The translations under genes were made by a program, and so were the position numbers. The notes beneath the pieces were generated by a model, which saw nothing but the letters and a program-made list of their open reading frames with translations, was not told where the DNA came from and did no database searches. Shown here piece by piece: positions 11,636-17,072 of a DNA stretch of 64,000 nucleotides (the stretch's first letter is position 1; every line of letters begins with the position of its first letter). The DNA is from Bacteroidales bacterium (GTDB taxonomy: Bacteria; Bacteroidota; Bacteroidia; Bacteroidales; UBA1402). Where the stretch lies: positions 62,001 through 126,000 of the forward strand of contig JAFODP010000009.1 of NCBI GenBank assembly GCA_017380635.1. Direction: 5' to 3'.

Positions 11636-12679
11636 TTAATTGTTTTCAGGACGCAACTGACGAACAACAGCGCCGGCTTGCCACATTTCGCTTTCGCGCA
11701 AAGCCTTCAATTCTGCTTCCAATCCGACACGATAATCGGGTTTTGAGTTGCTATCGATAGAGATTTGAGCTTCGTTGCCCGATTTTACGCTATCGTAAAG
11801 TTTCTGAACCACAGGCTTGATAGCATCGTGGAAAGGACCCATCCAGTCGAGCGCACCACGTTGTGCTGTGGTTGAACAGTTGGCATACATCCAGTCCATA
11901 CCATTCTTAGCAAACAAAGGCATCAAAGATTGGGTCAATTCTTCTACAGTTTCGTTGAAAGCTTCCGAAGGCGTATGTCCGTTTTCACGCAACACTTCGT
12001 ATTGAGCCAACAACAGACCCTGGATAGCGCCCATCAAAGAGCCACGTTCGCCGGTAAGATCGGAAGTAGCTTCGCGAATGAAAGTGGTTTCAAACATATA
12101 ACCCGAACCGATACCGATACCCAAAGCCAAAGTACGATCCATAGCCTTTCCTGTAACATCTTGATAAATAGCGTATGAAGAGTTCAAACCGCGACCTTCG
12201 AGGAACATGGTACGAAGTGAAGTACCCGAACCCTTAGGAGCCACCATGATAACATCCACATCGGCAGGAGGCACCACGCCGGTACGATCGTTCCATGTGA
12301 TAGCAAAGCCGTGAGAGAAATACAAAGCCTTGCCGGGGGTCAGATAGTTTTTAATCGTAGGCCATACCGACATCACAGCGGCATCCGACAACAGACACAT
12401 GATGATGCTGGCTTTCTGACAAGCTTCTTCGATAGAAAACAAAGTTTCACCGGGCACCCAACCATCGGCCACAGCCTTTTCGTAAGTGGCACCTGCACGC
12501 TGACCAACAATCACATTGAAACCATTGTCTCTGAGGTTGAGCGACTGACCGGGGCCTTGTACACCATAACCAATCACTGCGATGGTTTCATCTTTCAACA
12601 CATCCAATGCTTTTTCCAAAGGAAATTCTTCGCGGGTGATAACCGTTTCTTCTACACCGCCAAAATTCAATTTTGCCAT
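11636..12679 (-). CDS. ilvC: Ketol-acid reductoisomerase
   Basis: NADPH- and Mg-dependent isomeroreductase converting acetolactate or acetohydroxybutyrate to the dihydroxy acids for valine, leucine and isoleucine. The 347-residue length is that of class I. The Rossmann motif is IAVIGYGVQGPGQSLNLRDN (about residues 33-52). The C-terminal catalytic helical domain includes FETTFIREATSDLTGERG, which supplies Mg ligands. It is the last gene of the operon ilvD-ilvB-ilvN-ilvC, 74 bases after ilvN, and is followed by a terminator. The family is unambiguous. Confidence 0.97.
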   Translation of the reverse strand: MAKLNFGGVEETVITREEFPLEKALDVLKDETIAVIGYGVQGPGQSLNLRDNGFNVIVGQRAGATYEKAVADGWVPGETLFSIEEACQKASIIMCLLSDAAVMSVWPTIKNYLTPGKALYFSHGFAITWNDRTGVVPPADVDVIMVAPKGSGTSLRTMFLEGRGLNSSYAIYQDVTGKAMDRTLALGIGIGSGYMFETTFIREATSDLTGERGSLMGAIQGLLLAQYEVLRENGHTPSEAFNETVEELTQSLMPLFAKNGMDWMYANCSTTAQRGALDWMGPFHDAIKPVVQKLYDSVKSGNEAQISIDSNSKPDYRVGLEAELKALRESEMWQAGAVVRQLRPENN

Positions 12680-12753: not shown

Positions 12754-13308
12754 TTACAACATTTCTTCCGAACCGCAACGACGCGCCTCCACTTCTTCCA
12801 AGAAAGCGCTTACTTTCTCTTCGATAGATTTGGTGATGGCCACACGTCCGGAGCGGACAAACTGCAAAATACCGGAAGGTTTCAATTCTTCGTACAAAGC
12901 CTCAATCTCTTCGGTATGACCACTCTGCTCTATCACAGAATAATCGCGTGTCACTTCCAGAATACGGGCATTGTATTTGCGCACCATTTTTTCCACCTCG
13001 TTGTTGTCGAGCAAGGTTTCGGTAGACACTTTGTATAGCGCCACTTCCTGGAAAATAATTTCATCGTCGGTATAATAGAATGCCTTCAGAATATCGATAC
13101 GACGTTCAATCTGACGCACGATTTTAGAAATGGTATCTTCGTCGGTTTCGGCCGTAATGGTGAATTTATGCACGCCGGGAATAGCCGAACGCGACACGGT
13201 CAAACTTTCAATATTCACCTGACGACGCGTAAAGACGATGGTTACCTGATTGAGCAAACCGACCTGGTTTTCGGAATAAACCGTTACTGTATATAATTTT
13301 TTCTCCAT
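12754..13308 (-). CDS. ilvN: Acetolactate synthase small (regulatory) subunit
   Basis: Regulatory partner of IlvB that normally gives valine feedback. 184 residues. The N-terminal ACT domain (about 4-78) starts LYTVTVYSENQVGLLNQV and continues RRQVNIESLTVSRS, and a second ACT-like half follows (VALYKVSTETLLDN to about residue 170). The length fits the long bacterial form (also called IlvH). It lies 30 bases after ilvB and 74 bases before ilvC. Confidence 0.95.
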   Translation of the reverse strand: MEKKLYTVTVYSENQVGLLNQVTIVFTRRQVNIESLTVSRSAIPGVHKFTITAETDEDTISKIVRQIERRIDILKAFYYTDDEIIFQEVALYKVSTETLLDNNEVEKMVRKYNARILEVTRDYSVIEQSGHTEEIEALYEELKPSGILQFVRSGRVAITKSIEEKVSAFLEEVEARRCGSEEML

Positions 13309-13338: not shown

Positions 13339-15033
13339 TCAAGCTTTGTCTTTACCTAATATAATATGCGAAATAGGACTGCCGGCAGGAATCATCGGAT
13401 ACACCAAACCATGTTGTTCCACTTTCACTTCGAGCAGATAAGGGCCTTGATGTGCCACCATCTCCTGGATAGCAGCTTGCAAATTTTCGCGTTTTTCCAC
13501 ACTGGCTGCCGCAATGCCATAAGCTTGTGCAATCTTGACAAAATCGGGATTCACCATAGGTGTAGAGGAATAACGTTCTTGCCAGAAAAGTTCCTGCCAT
13601 TGACGAACCATACCCAAATAACTGTTGTTCAAGATAATAAGCTTCACCGGCATTTGATATTGCAGGATGGTGCCCAATTCCTGGATAGTCATCTGAATAC
13701 CGCCATCGCCACATACCGCATAGGTTTCGGCTTCCGGATTACCCAAAGCCGCACCGATGGCCGCAGGAAAACCAAAGCCCATGGTTCCAAGACCTCCCGA
13801 AGCGATGAATTGTCGTTGCGGCGAAGCGCTGAAATAACGTGCCGAAATCATCTGATTCTGACCCACATCCGCCACCAAAGTTGCCTTTTCGCCCGAAGTA
13901 TCGGACAAACATTTCAACACTTCTGCCATACTGAGTGCCGTATGCTGCGGATGAAGATCCTTGGAAATCACCTCATCGTATTCTTGCTGACGATATGGCG
14001 CAAAACTTGCTATCCAATCTTGGTGCTTAGCCTTGTTAACCAATGCTGTAAGCGCAGGCAATGATGTTTTCACATCGGCCACGATAGCCACATCCACCTT
14101 CACATTCTTATTGATTTCGGAAGGGTCGATATCCAAATGAATAATCTTGGCCTGGGGTGCATAAGATTGAATATTGCCGGTAACACGATCGGAAAAACGC
14201 ATACCGATAGCAATAAGCACATCGCAGGCATTGGTTTGTCTATTAGGCGCCACATTGCCATGCATGCCCACCATACCCATATTCAAAGGATAATTTTCGT
14301 CCATGATGGAAAGCCCCATCAAAGTGGAAGCCGCCGGAATATCGGCTTTTTCAAGGAAAGCATATAGTTCTTGTATCGCATGACCCAATTGCACACCTTG
14401 ACCCACCACAGCCAAAGGTCTTTCTGCGGCATTGATTAAAGCAGCGGCTTCTCGCATAGCGGAAGTATCCGGCTGGGGATATGGTTGATAACTGCGGATA
14501 AAGCGACAAGGCTCATAATGAAAATCAAGCATTTGCACTTGAGCATCCTTAGAAATATCGAGCACCACCGGGCCCGGACGACCTTCGCGGGCAATATAAA
14601 AGGCGCGAGCCACTGCCCAAGGCAAATCTTCGGCACGGCGCACCTGATAACTCCATTTGGTCACCGGTTGGGTAATGCCAATCACGTCGGTTTCTTGAAA
14701 ACTATCGGTTCCCAATTGAGCCACCGTCGATTGTCCGGTAATAATAACCAAAGGTGTACTATCCATCATGGCATCGGCCGCTCCGGTAACGATATTGGTA
14801 GCCGCCGGACCGGAAGTCACCATCACCAAACCTGGCTTGCCTGACACACGCGCATAACCTTGGGCCGCGTGAATAGCGCCCTGTTCGTGTCGTGTCAGAA
14901 TAAATTTGAATACATCTTGATACGAATACAAGGCATCGAAGGCGGGAATGATGAAGCCGCCGGGATAACCGAATATCGTATCAACTTTTTCTTCTTTAAA
15001 ACAGCGCATCAGCGCTTCAGCACCACTGATCAT
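13339..15033 (-). CDS. ilvB: Acetolactate synthase large (catalytic) subunit
   Basis: ThDP-dependent enzyme condensing pyruvate with pyruvate or 2-ketobutyrate, the first common step of branched-chain amino acid synthesis. 564 residues. The N-terminal pyrimidine-binding domain carries the catalytic Glu in TRHEQGAIHAAQGYARVSG. A central domain follows, and the C-terminal ThDP/Mg site reads CGDGGIQMTIQELGT through ILNNSYLGMVRQWQ. It starts 18 bases after ilvD, and the start MISGAEALMRCFKEE aligns with the family N-terminus. Confidence 0.97.
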   Translation of the reverse strand: MISGAEALMRCFKEEKVDTIFGYPGGFIIPAFDALYSYQDVFKFILTRHEQGAIHAAQGYARVSGKPGLVMVTSGPAATNIVTGAADAMMDSTPLVIITGQSTVAQLGTDSFQETDVIGITQPVTKWSYQVRRAEDLPWAVARAFYIAREGRPGPVVLDISKDAQVQMLDFHYEPCRFIRSYQPYPQPDTSAMREAAALINAAERPLAVVGQGVQLGHAIQELYAFLEKADIPAASTLMGLSIMDENYPLNMGMVGMHGNVAPNRQTNACDVLIAIGMRFSDRVTGNIQSYAPQAKIIHLDIDPSEINKNVKVDVAIVADVKTSLPALTALVNKAKHQDWIASFAPYRQQEYDEVISKDLHPQHTALSMAEVLKCLSDTSGEKATLVADVGQNQMISARYFSASPQRQFIASGGLGTMGFGFPAAIGAALGNPEAETYAVCGDGGIQMTIQELGTILQYQMPVKLIILNNSYLGMVRQWQELFWQERYSSTPMVNPDFVKIAQAYGIAAASVEKRENLQAAIQEMVAHQGPYLLEVKVEQHGLVYPMIPAGSPISHIILGKDKA

Positions 15034-15051: not shown

Positions 15052-16881
15052 TCAAATAATACGAACGGCGCCTTTATCGGCCGAGCTAACAGCCTGGGCA
15101 TAAGCACGAAGAGCCTTGGAAACCACTCTATCGCGTTGCGGTTGATAAGCCGCCTTGCCTTTGGCCAATTCTTTATTGCGTCGTTCTTGTAATTCAGCAT
15201 CACTGAGTTGTACCTGAATGAGACGTGCAGGAATGTCAATTTCGATGATGTCGCCATCTTGCACCAGTGCAATGTCGCCTCCGGCTGCCGCCTCCGGCGA
15301 CACATGCCCAATCGACAGCCCCGAAGTTCCACCCGAGAAACGACCATCCGTCACCAAAGCACATTCCTTACCCAAATGACGAGACTTGATATAAGAGGTG
15401 GGATACAACATTTCCTGCATACCGGGACCACCTTTCGGACCTTCGTACACAATCAGCACCACGTCGCCACGCTGCACCTTGCCCGACAAAATACCATCGC
15501 AAGCGGCTTCCTGCGAATGAAAAACTTTGGCCGGACCTTGAAATTTCCAGATAGATTCATCCACACCGGCTGTCTTCACCACGCAACCATCCAGAGCGAT
15601 ATTTCCTTTCAGAATAGCCAAACCGCCATCTTTGGTATAGGCATGTGCCATATCGCGGATACAGCCGCTCTCACGATTATCGTCCAAACTATCGTAGTAG
15701 CTCGATTGCGAAGACATCACATTGCTGAATCGGCCGGCAGGCGCCACGCGATACATATCCTTCGATTCTTGACAAAGCGAAGGCGAAGTCAGAGCATAGG
15801 CGTCCATGGCTGCTTGCAAGTTCAATCCATCAACTCGTCTAGCACTTGTATCCAGCAGATTAGCTTTGGAAAGTTCGTATAAAATAGAAAGAATACCACC
15901 GGCGCGGTGAACATCCTGCACATGATATTTGGCCGTATTGGGAGCCACTTTGCAAAGACAAGGCACGCGACGCGAAAGCGCATCGATATCGTCCATACAG
16001 AAATCCACTTCGGCTTCCTGCGCAATGGCCAACAAATGCAAAACCGTATTCGTAGAGCCGCCCATGGCGATATCCAAAGTCATGGCATTGAGGAAAGCGC
16101 TTCGAGTGGCAATAGAACGTGGCAACACCGATGCATCGCCATCGCGATAATAGGCCATTGCATTGTTCACAATCTGACGAGCCGCTTTCAAGAACAATTC
16201 CTTACGCTGCGAGTGCGTAGCCAGAAGCGTTCCGTTACCGGGCAAAGCCATACCCAAGGCTTCGTTCAAGCAGTTCATCGAATTGGCCGTAAACATACCG
16301 CTACAACAACCGCAACCGGGACAAGCGCAAGCCTCTACCCTTTCTATCTGCGCATCGCTGATACTGCTGTCGGCCGACTGTATCATGGCATCAATCAAGT
16401 CTAAATGCTTGCCATCCAGCTGACCGGCTTCCATCGGACCACCCGACACAAAAACCGTAGGAATATTCAATCGCATGGATGCCATCAGCATACCGGGCGT
16501 AATTTTATCGCAATTGCTGATACAAATCATCGCGTCGGCCTTGTGCGCGTTCACCATATATTCCACGCTGTCGGCAATAATGTCGCGCGAAGGCAAAGAA
16601 TACAACATACCGTCGTGTCCCATGGCGATACCATCGTCGATGGCAATGGTATTGAATTCGGCTGCAAAGCAACCCATACGTTCTATTTCAGCTTTGACGA
16701 TTTGTCCGATTTCGTGCAGATGAACATGACCGGGTACAAACTGCGTAAAGGAATTGACCACCGCGATAATCGGTTTGCCCATCTGTTCCTTTTTCATACC
16801 GTTGGCAGCCCAAAGCGCGCGAGCGCCGGCCATTCTTCTACCTTGTGTGCAGTCGTCGCTGCGAAGTGGAATTTTCATCAT
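15052..16881 (-). CDS. ilvD: Dihydroxy-acid dehydratase
   Basis: Iron-sulfur enzyme that dehydrates 2,3-dihydroxy acids to the 2-keto acids for valine and isoleucine. 609 residues, full length. Cluster-ligand motifs are present: [11 protein letters not shown] near residue 125 and [19 protein letters not shown] near 195. The C-terminal signature [19 protein letters not shown] is intact. Two tandem ATG codons (16881 and 16878) are possible starts, and no good Shine-Dalgarno is visible. It is the first structural gene of the operon and lies just 9 bases behind the T-tract of a leader terminator, so expression requires read-through (see attenuator). Confidence 0.97.
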
Positions 16882-16890
16882 AATTCAATC

Positions 16891-16920
16891 AAAAAAGCCT
16901 CTCCAACAAAGGAAAGGCTT
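16891..16920 (-). terminator. Attenuator terminator in the ilv leader
   Basis: On the minus strand AAGCCTTTCC (16920-16911) pairs over ten bases (one G-U) with GGAGAGGCTT (16904-16895) around a 6-base loop and is followed by four further Ts. It lies between the leader peptide and ilvD in the same orientation, so it can only serve to abort transcription before the structural genes. Confidence 0.88.
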
Positions 16921-16957
16921 GTTATCGCTTATTCATCATTATTGCAAATGCCTTTCC
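16911..16957 (-). promoter_or_regulatory. Antiterminator pairing of the ilv leader
   Basis: GGAAAGGC (minus strand, 16957-16950), directly after the leader stop codon, is the exact complement of GCCTTTCC (16918-16911), which forms most of the 5' arm of the terminator. The two pairings exclude each other. A ribosome that reaches the leader stop codon would cover GGAAAGGC and let the terminator form. A ribosome stalled earlier in the Val/Ile/Leu codons leaves it free to form the antiterminator. Confidence 0.85.
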
Positions 16958-17020
16958 TTATCTCTTCGTCACCACGACCAAAAGAATCACGACATTCACC
17001 AACATGACGATAGTATTCAT
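16958..17020 (-). CDS. Branched-chain leader peptide of the ilv operon
   Basis: A 20-residue reading frame, MNTIVMLVNVVILLVVVTKR, then TAA. Seven Val, two Ile and three Leu make 12 of 20 residues, including the runs VNVVILL and VVV. This composition is the hallmark of ilv attenuator leader peptides such as those of enteric ilvGMEDA. The ATG lies about 14 bases after the predicted transcription start, and the stop codon abuts the antiterminator strand. The role is to sense charged tRNA-Val, tRNA-Ile and tRNA-Leu through ribosome stalling; the peptide itself need have no function. It is too short for standard gene finders. Function is inferred; the sequence facts are direct. Confidence 0.87.
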   Translation of the reverse strand: MNTIVMLVNVVILLVVVTKR

Positions 17021-17040
17021 AAATCTGTTTTTAACGGGCG

Positions 17041-17072
17041 CAAAAGTAAAATATTCAAGTTGTTTCTGCAAA
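17041..17072 (-). promoter_or_regulatory. Promoter of the ilv operon
   Basis: The minus strand has TTTG (17072-17069), a 20-base spacer and TACTTTTG (17048-17041), an exact match to the Bacteroidota vegetative consensus. The transcript would start near 17034, just before the leader peptide. Confidence 0.85.

Follow-up and report, generated by a model that had tools for sequence, protein, structure and literature searches.

The stretch of DNA analysed here, a window of 64 kb, carries the ilvDBNC operon together with a leader region ahead of ilvD, and all elements of the leader lie on the minus strand. The features are as follows, with their basis in brackets.

17041..17072, minus strand: promoter of the Bacteroidota primary-sigma type, with TTTG (17072-17069), a gap of 20 nt and TACTTTTG (17048-17041), which matches TAnnTTTG (sequence)
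16958..17020, minus strand: leader peptide frame MNTIVMLVNVVILLVVVTKR, from the ATG at 17020 to the TAA at 16958 (sequence)
16991..17010, minus strand: strand 1 of the predicted 1:2 protector structure, leader codons 4-10 (folding; swap tests in relatives)
16970..16978, minus strand: last regulatory codons, GTC GTG GTG, V15-V17 (sequence, geometry and folding model)
16950..16957, minus strand: arm 2, the antiterminator strand GGAAAGGC, which begins at the base directly 3' of the stop codon
16933..16952, minus strand: partner strand of the predicted 1:2 structure, overlapping the 3' end of arm 2 and the linker (folding)
16895..16920, minus strand: intrinsic terminator hairpin, arms 3 and 4, 10 pairs (terminator prediction; a homologue of the hairpin in 71 of the 90 ilvD upstream regions compared)
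16891..16896, minus strand: terminator T-tract (sequence)
15052..16881, minus strand: ilvD, dihydroxy-acid dehydratase, the first gene of the operon (Pfam PF00920, PF24877)
13339..15033, minus strand: ilvB, acetolactate synthase large subunit (TPP enzyme domains PF02775, PF00205, PF02776), a gene name given because of its operon position
12754..13308, minus strand: ilvN, acetolactate synthase small subunit (PF10369, PF22629)
11636..12679, minus strand: ilvC, ketol-acid reductoisomerase (PF07991, PF01450)

The leader peptide has 20 residues, 12 of which are valine, isoleucine or leucine, and the V17 codon starts 15 nt 5' of GGAAAGGC. The exact complement of this strand, GCCTTTCC (16918-16911), follows after 31 nt and forms the 5' arm of the terminator hairpin. 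The ilvD ATG is located at 16881, 9 nt past the T-tract, with a distance of 13 nt between the hairpin and the start codon. The initial annotation had described the promoter, the Val/Ile/Leu-rich frame, GGAAAGGC directly after the stop codon, its complement within the 10-pair terminator and the position of ilvD, and this anatomy was recovered base for base. The antiterminator complementarity was equalled by none of 100 shuffles, and the fold of the leader had a z-score of -4.45, with none of 200 shuffles equally good. When both strands were scanned, the composite of a short Val/Ile/Leu-rich frame, a terminator and an antiterminator was found at this single site in the 64 kb. A scan for E. coli-type promoters gave no match at the leader promoter site; in 60 of 65 relatives TAnnTTTG occurred no more than 60 nt from the leader ATG, compared with 8 of 65 for a reversed-pattern control.

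The ilvD upstream regions of 12 family genomes, among them that of the window, and of 80 named or metagenomic loci, mostly Bacteroidales, were compared, and 90 of these regions were usable. A terminator competing with a complementary upstream antiterminator arm was found in 71 of the 90, and the element was present by inspection in two further loci (L073 and L091). Among the 71 terminator-bearing loci, all but one carried a short frame that starts with ATG and ends close to the antiterminator arm. Valine, leucine and isoleucine made up 48% of all leader residues across the relatives, and the arms were typically GTGAGAAAGG, GCCTTTCTCAC and GTGAGAAAGGC. The carriers include Bacteroides fragilis (L042), Parabacteroides gordonii (L062), P. 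distasonis (L014) and Dysgonomonas mossii (L040). The ilvD leader is thus a real, conserved element in Bacteroidales, and the comparison that had been proposed as a check on it bore out both the retention of Val/Ile/Leu leaders and the covariation of the arms. The peptide sequence varies widely in the relatives, while the position of the regulatory codons stays put.

The element was absent from the ilvD upstream regions of seven close relatives that have the gene (L003-L006, L009, L010 and L016); L003-L005 belong to the window's genus, and L006, L009 and L010 to a sister genus. Given this patchy absence, the element was either lost more than once or gained unevenly. Several of the close relatives that lack it have a promoter-like site directly before ilvD. 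Outside the order, candidates were identified in 6 of 40 ilvD regions sampled from the class or phylum (L096, L097, L099, L101, L111 and L131); in L131, from another class of the phylum, the terminator arm reads CCTTTCC. A short DNA pattern searched over 119 genomes of the order was too unspecific for use.

In 92% of the loci the antiterminator outperformed its dinucleotide shuffles (p ≤ 0.05). Across 66 distinct loci, 624 Watson-Crick cells of the 2:3 pairing were observed, against 559 ± 6 (maximum 584) in 2000 permutations of arm 2, a test in which the relatedness of the loci is only partly corrected; the raw pairing counts are inflated because the register that pairs best was picked for each locus. 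Antiterminator columns 6 to 9 switch in step among A-T, G-C and T-A types. The antiterminator arm is mutually exclusive with the terminator and covaries with it. In an alignment of 54 leaders, arm 3, CCTTTCTC, was nearly invariant over the order, beyond what pairing alone needs; its participation in three-way pairing and the TGA stop embedded in it may explain this.

The spacing between the leader codons and the arm was examined in 63 distinct leaders; in 50 of them, 12-16 nt separate the start of the last Val/Ile/Leu codon from the antiterminator arm. The position of the stop codon relative to the first base of the arm ranges from -5 to +25 nt. The initial annotation had taken the abutting stop codon to be what makes a simple two-state switch. 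Such a stop is indeed usual, falling between -5 and +4 in 52 of the 63 leaders, but in the other 11 it lies 7-25 nt past the start of the arm, and the abutting position is therefore not essential to the switch.

To model ribosome position, the window transcript, ending at the terminator loop, was folded while a footprint spanning -17 to +12 around the A-site was set on each codon tested. Before arm 4 exists, the modelled probability of the 2:3 pairing was 0.95-1.00 with the A-site on the tested Val/Ile/Leu codons up to V17 (0.95 at V17); it dropped to 0.05 at T18, and to 0 at K19, R20 and the stop. In 76% of the relatives, the switching codon came 0-2 codons after the last Val/Ile/Leu codon, compared with 37% when the leader residues were shuffled. 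Of all the individual arguments for an element that reads ribosome position, this modelled V17/T18 switch, together with the codon placement in relatives, is the strongest. The full window transcript at equilibrium always favoured the terminator in the model, so the switch must act kinetically, during transcription. With no ribosome in place, the fold before arm 4 still favoured the antiterminator (P 0.95 in the window, and in 49 of the 63 loci overall), and kinetics would decide the default state when the leader is untranslated.

According to the initial annotation, no separate pause hairpin would be required. This was not supported, as a 1:2 structure is predicted here and in most relatives, and its pairing covaries. 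The predicted pairs in the window join 17010-17004 with 16939-16933 and 16999-16991 with 16952-16944. Before arm 3 is made, arm 2 was predicted to be paired upstream with a mean probability of 0.76, and above 0.5 in 57 of 63 loci; the window itself gives a lower value, 0.34, since for the most part the pairing there encloses arm 2. Duplexes of the leader codons with the sequence that directly follows AAGG (frequently GTATGTA) had an energy of -803 with their own partners and of -645 ± 19 with swapped ones, and own partners also paired better within the Bacteroidaceae-like loci and within the remaining loci separately. The leader also conserves residues other than valine, leucine and isoleucine, such as the H in LH and the N in INL, and the codons of these residues lie inside the 1:2 pairing. 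The 1:2 structure probably paces RNA polymerase and shields arm 2 when the ribosome is absent.

Rare codons were enriched in the leaders. GTC accounted for 48% of their valine codons, compared with 15% in the genes that follow at these loci, and CTA for 17% of their leucine codons, compared with 3%. In the window, 3 of the 7 leader valine codons are GTC, while the codon supplies 6% of the valine in ten nearby genes. Part of this enrichment may reflect RNA pairing. Counts of replacements of one branched-chain residue by another were discarded as uninformative, as 48% of the leader residues are already valine, isoleucine or leucine.

The upstream regions of other amino-acid operons were sampled by family search. 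In the window genome, a His leader, MNKYPHHHHALQS, precedes hisG (L146, G000:C49), a Leu/Ile leader, MTLASIILLNDIILLSKESGSDVCM, precedes leuA (L165, G000:C50), and a Phe/Tyr leader precedes the prephenate dehydratase gene (L187, G000:C49), each followed by a terminator. A leader with a terminator was present in 14 of the 15 hisG, 11 of the 18 leuA, 11 of the 15 prephenate dehydratase and 3 of the 10 trpE upstream regions examined. The hisG relatives (L133-L147) have up to six consecutive histidines in their leaders, and the trpE loci L175, L176 and L180 have WWW leaders with terminators. Phe/Tyr-rich leaders such as MNVFSFAYYFSFYFYFSHKVERALVCIE, with terminators, were seen in the prephenate dehydratase relatives L185, L186, L188, L189, L192, L194-L196, L198 and L199, and Leu/Ile-rich leaders with terminators in the leuA relatives L156, L157, L159, L160, L163, L164, L166 and L168. 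The leuA leader arms CCTTTCTCACTTC and CCTTTCGCTTCC resemble the ilv arms, a likeness in sequence that suggests a common origin of the ilv and leu attenuators. In the leu, phe and his leaders, the distance from the end of the regulatory codons to the antiterminator arm is mostly 12-19 nt. For thrA, short poly-Thr frames were found in 5 of 12 relatives (L218, L221, L223, L224 and L225), with no convincing terminator paired with them in the 12, and a thr attenuator is only suggestive.

On its anatomy, conservation, covariation, geometry and codon bias, a ribosome-mediated transcription attenuator very probably controls ilvDBNC. The initial annotation had read the locus in this way, and the reading gains support from the conserved and covarying arms, the footprint geometry, the rare codons and the like layouts with matching codons elsewhere. 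For the ilvD leader we infer translation of the frame, ribosome stalling, termination and a response to amino acids. Transcription would start near 17036, and the 20-residue leader would be translated behind RNA polymerase; leader codons would also pair with the sequence after GGAAAGGC in the 1:2 structure. Under a shortage of charged tRNA for Val, Leu or Ile, the ribosome would stall on one of the 12 such codons, the last of them V17, with its leading edge just short of GGAAAGGC, which would then capture the emerging 5' arm of the terminator and allow read-through into ilvD. When charged tRNA is ample, the ribosome would move past V17 and, from Thr18 to the stop, cover GGAAAGGC, so that the terminator would form and transcription would end about 10 nt before ilvD.

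Other explanations of the leader were considered. It is quite unlikely that the leader acts mainly on translation, with the hairpin 13 nt from the ilvD start blocking ribosome entry and the antiterminator freeing it. The hairpin ends within 15 nt of the start in 9 of the 71 loci, the window included, and a clash with an initiating ribosome is therefore expected there; however, the hairpin-to-ilvD distance has a median of 22 nt and ranges up to 176 nt, and the T run after the hairpin is conserved, which makes termination the common feature. A dual effect on termination and translation is possible in the window species.

The excess conservation of CCTTTCTC could also be expected of a riboswitch, a T-box or a protein-bound leader with an incidental short frame. 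We consider this very unlikely, since no Rfam leader, riboswitch or T-box family was matched in the window or the relatives at gathering or permissive thresholds, the leaders retain a Val/Ile/Leu-rich frame, the geometry and the rare codons, and other operons bear matching His, Phe/Tyr or Trp codons. Almost no weight is given to a terminator that acts constitutively and without regulation upstream of ilvD, belonging to a small RNA or to a functional membrane micropeptide. The leader peptide is hydrophobic, but its sequence differs greatly between relatives that keep the regulatory codons in place, the antiterminator arm and the terminator covary, and the analogous leaders elsewhere are poly-His or Phe/Tyr.

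The mechanism proposed for the ilvD attenuator is classical, is no new kind of system and is part of a wider set. The enteric ilvGMEDA, ilvBN and leu attenuators are classical cases of ribosome-mediated attenuation. Like the window element, they have a leader peptide rich in the product amino acids, 1:2, 2:3 and 3:4 pairings, a terminator before the first gene and rare leader codons; the window element differs in its phylum, the operon order ilvDBNC, the Bacteroidota promoter and the conserved CCTTTCTC arms. It has no detectable relation to Rfam leader families. The Corynebacterium ilvB-II motif (PMC10272879) and the C. glutamicum ilvBNC attenuator (PMC11857589) likewise combine a short Val/Ile/Leu frame, a terminator and a complementary antiterminator before an ilv operon, and reporter data back attenuation in these systems (PMC10272879, PMC11857589). 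They differ from the window in belonging to Actinobacteria, in having ilvB first and a peptide of 15-17 residues, and in placing the antiterminator in the P1 loop.

A 2010 survey described leader-peptide systems as known from Proteobacteria and Actinobacteria only, and then added Firmicutes (PMC2965389). Within Bacteroidetes, the Bacteroid-trp motif RF01692 is a candidate cis-regulatory RNA (PMC2864571), the name of which points to trp genes. The RF01692 covariance model had no match in the window or in the tested trpE, his and leu loci, and the window element therefore lies outside that family. In B. thetaiotaomicron, short frames reminiscent of leader peptides were reported in 5' UTRs (PMC7366714). 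The initial annotation knew of no experimentally characterised case in the phylum, and the literature search found none either, so that precedence stands as regards experimental proof. It does not extend to prediction, as a transcriptome-based study of Flavobacterium psychrophilum had already given 'strong clues' of leader-peptide attenuation before amino-acid biosynthesis operons in 2021 (PMC9723704). That organism is of the same phylum as the window, but is a flavobacterium and not one of the Bacteroidales, and the clues occupy one main-text sentence, in which the ilv operon is unnamed; no comparative or geometric analysis was found with them. No ilvD attenuator in Bacteroidales was found in the literature search, although comparative work that Lopatovskaya and colleagues published in 2010 (cited in PMC4833913) may hold Bacteroidetes predictions; with that reservation, and as far as the literature was searched, attenuation is new for this operon and for the order Bacteroidales.

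It is on balance probable that Bacteroidota run most amino-acid biosynthesis (ilv, leu, his, phe/tyr, trp and thr) by shared ribosome-mediated attenuators, in which the invariant would be a spacing of roughly 12-16 nt from the last regulatory codon to the antiterminator arm, and part of the non-regulatory leader codons would be set by 1:2 RNA pairing. Little is known of the regulation of amino-acid synthesis in Bacteroidales, which are dominant gut bacteria, and the attenuator would provide a concrete, order-wide mechanism with single-codon predictions. It would also imply that translation in Bacteroidota follows RNA polymerase closely enough for attenuation to work.
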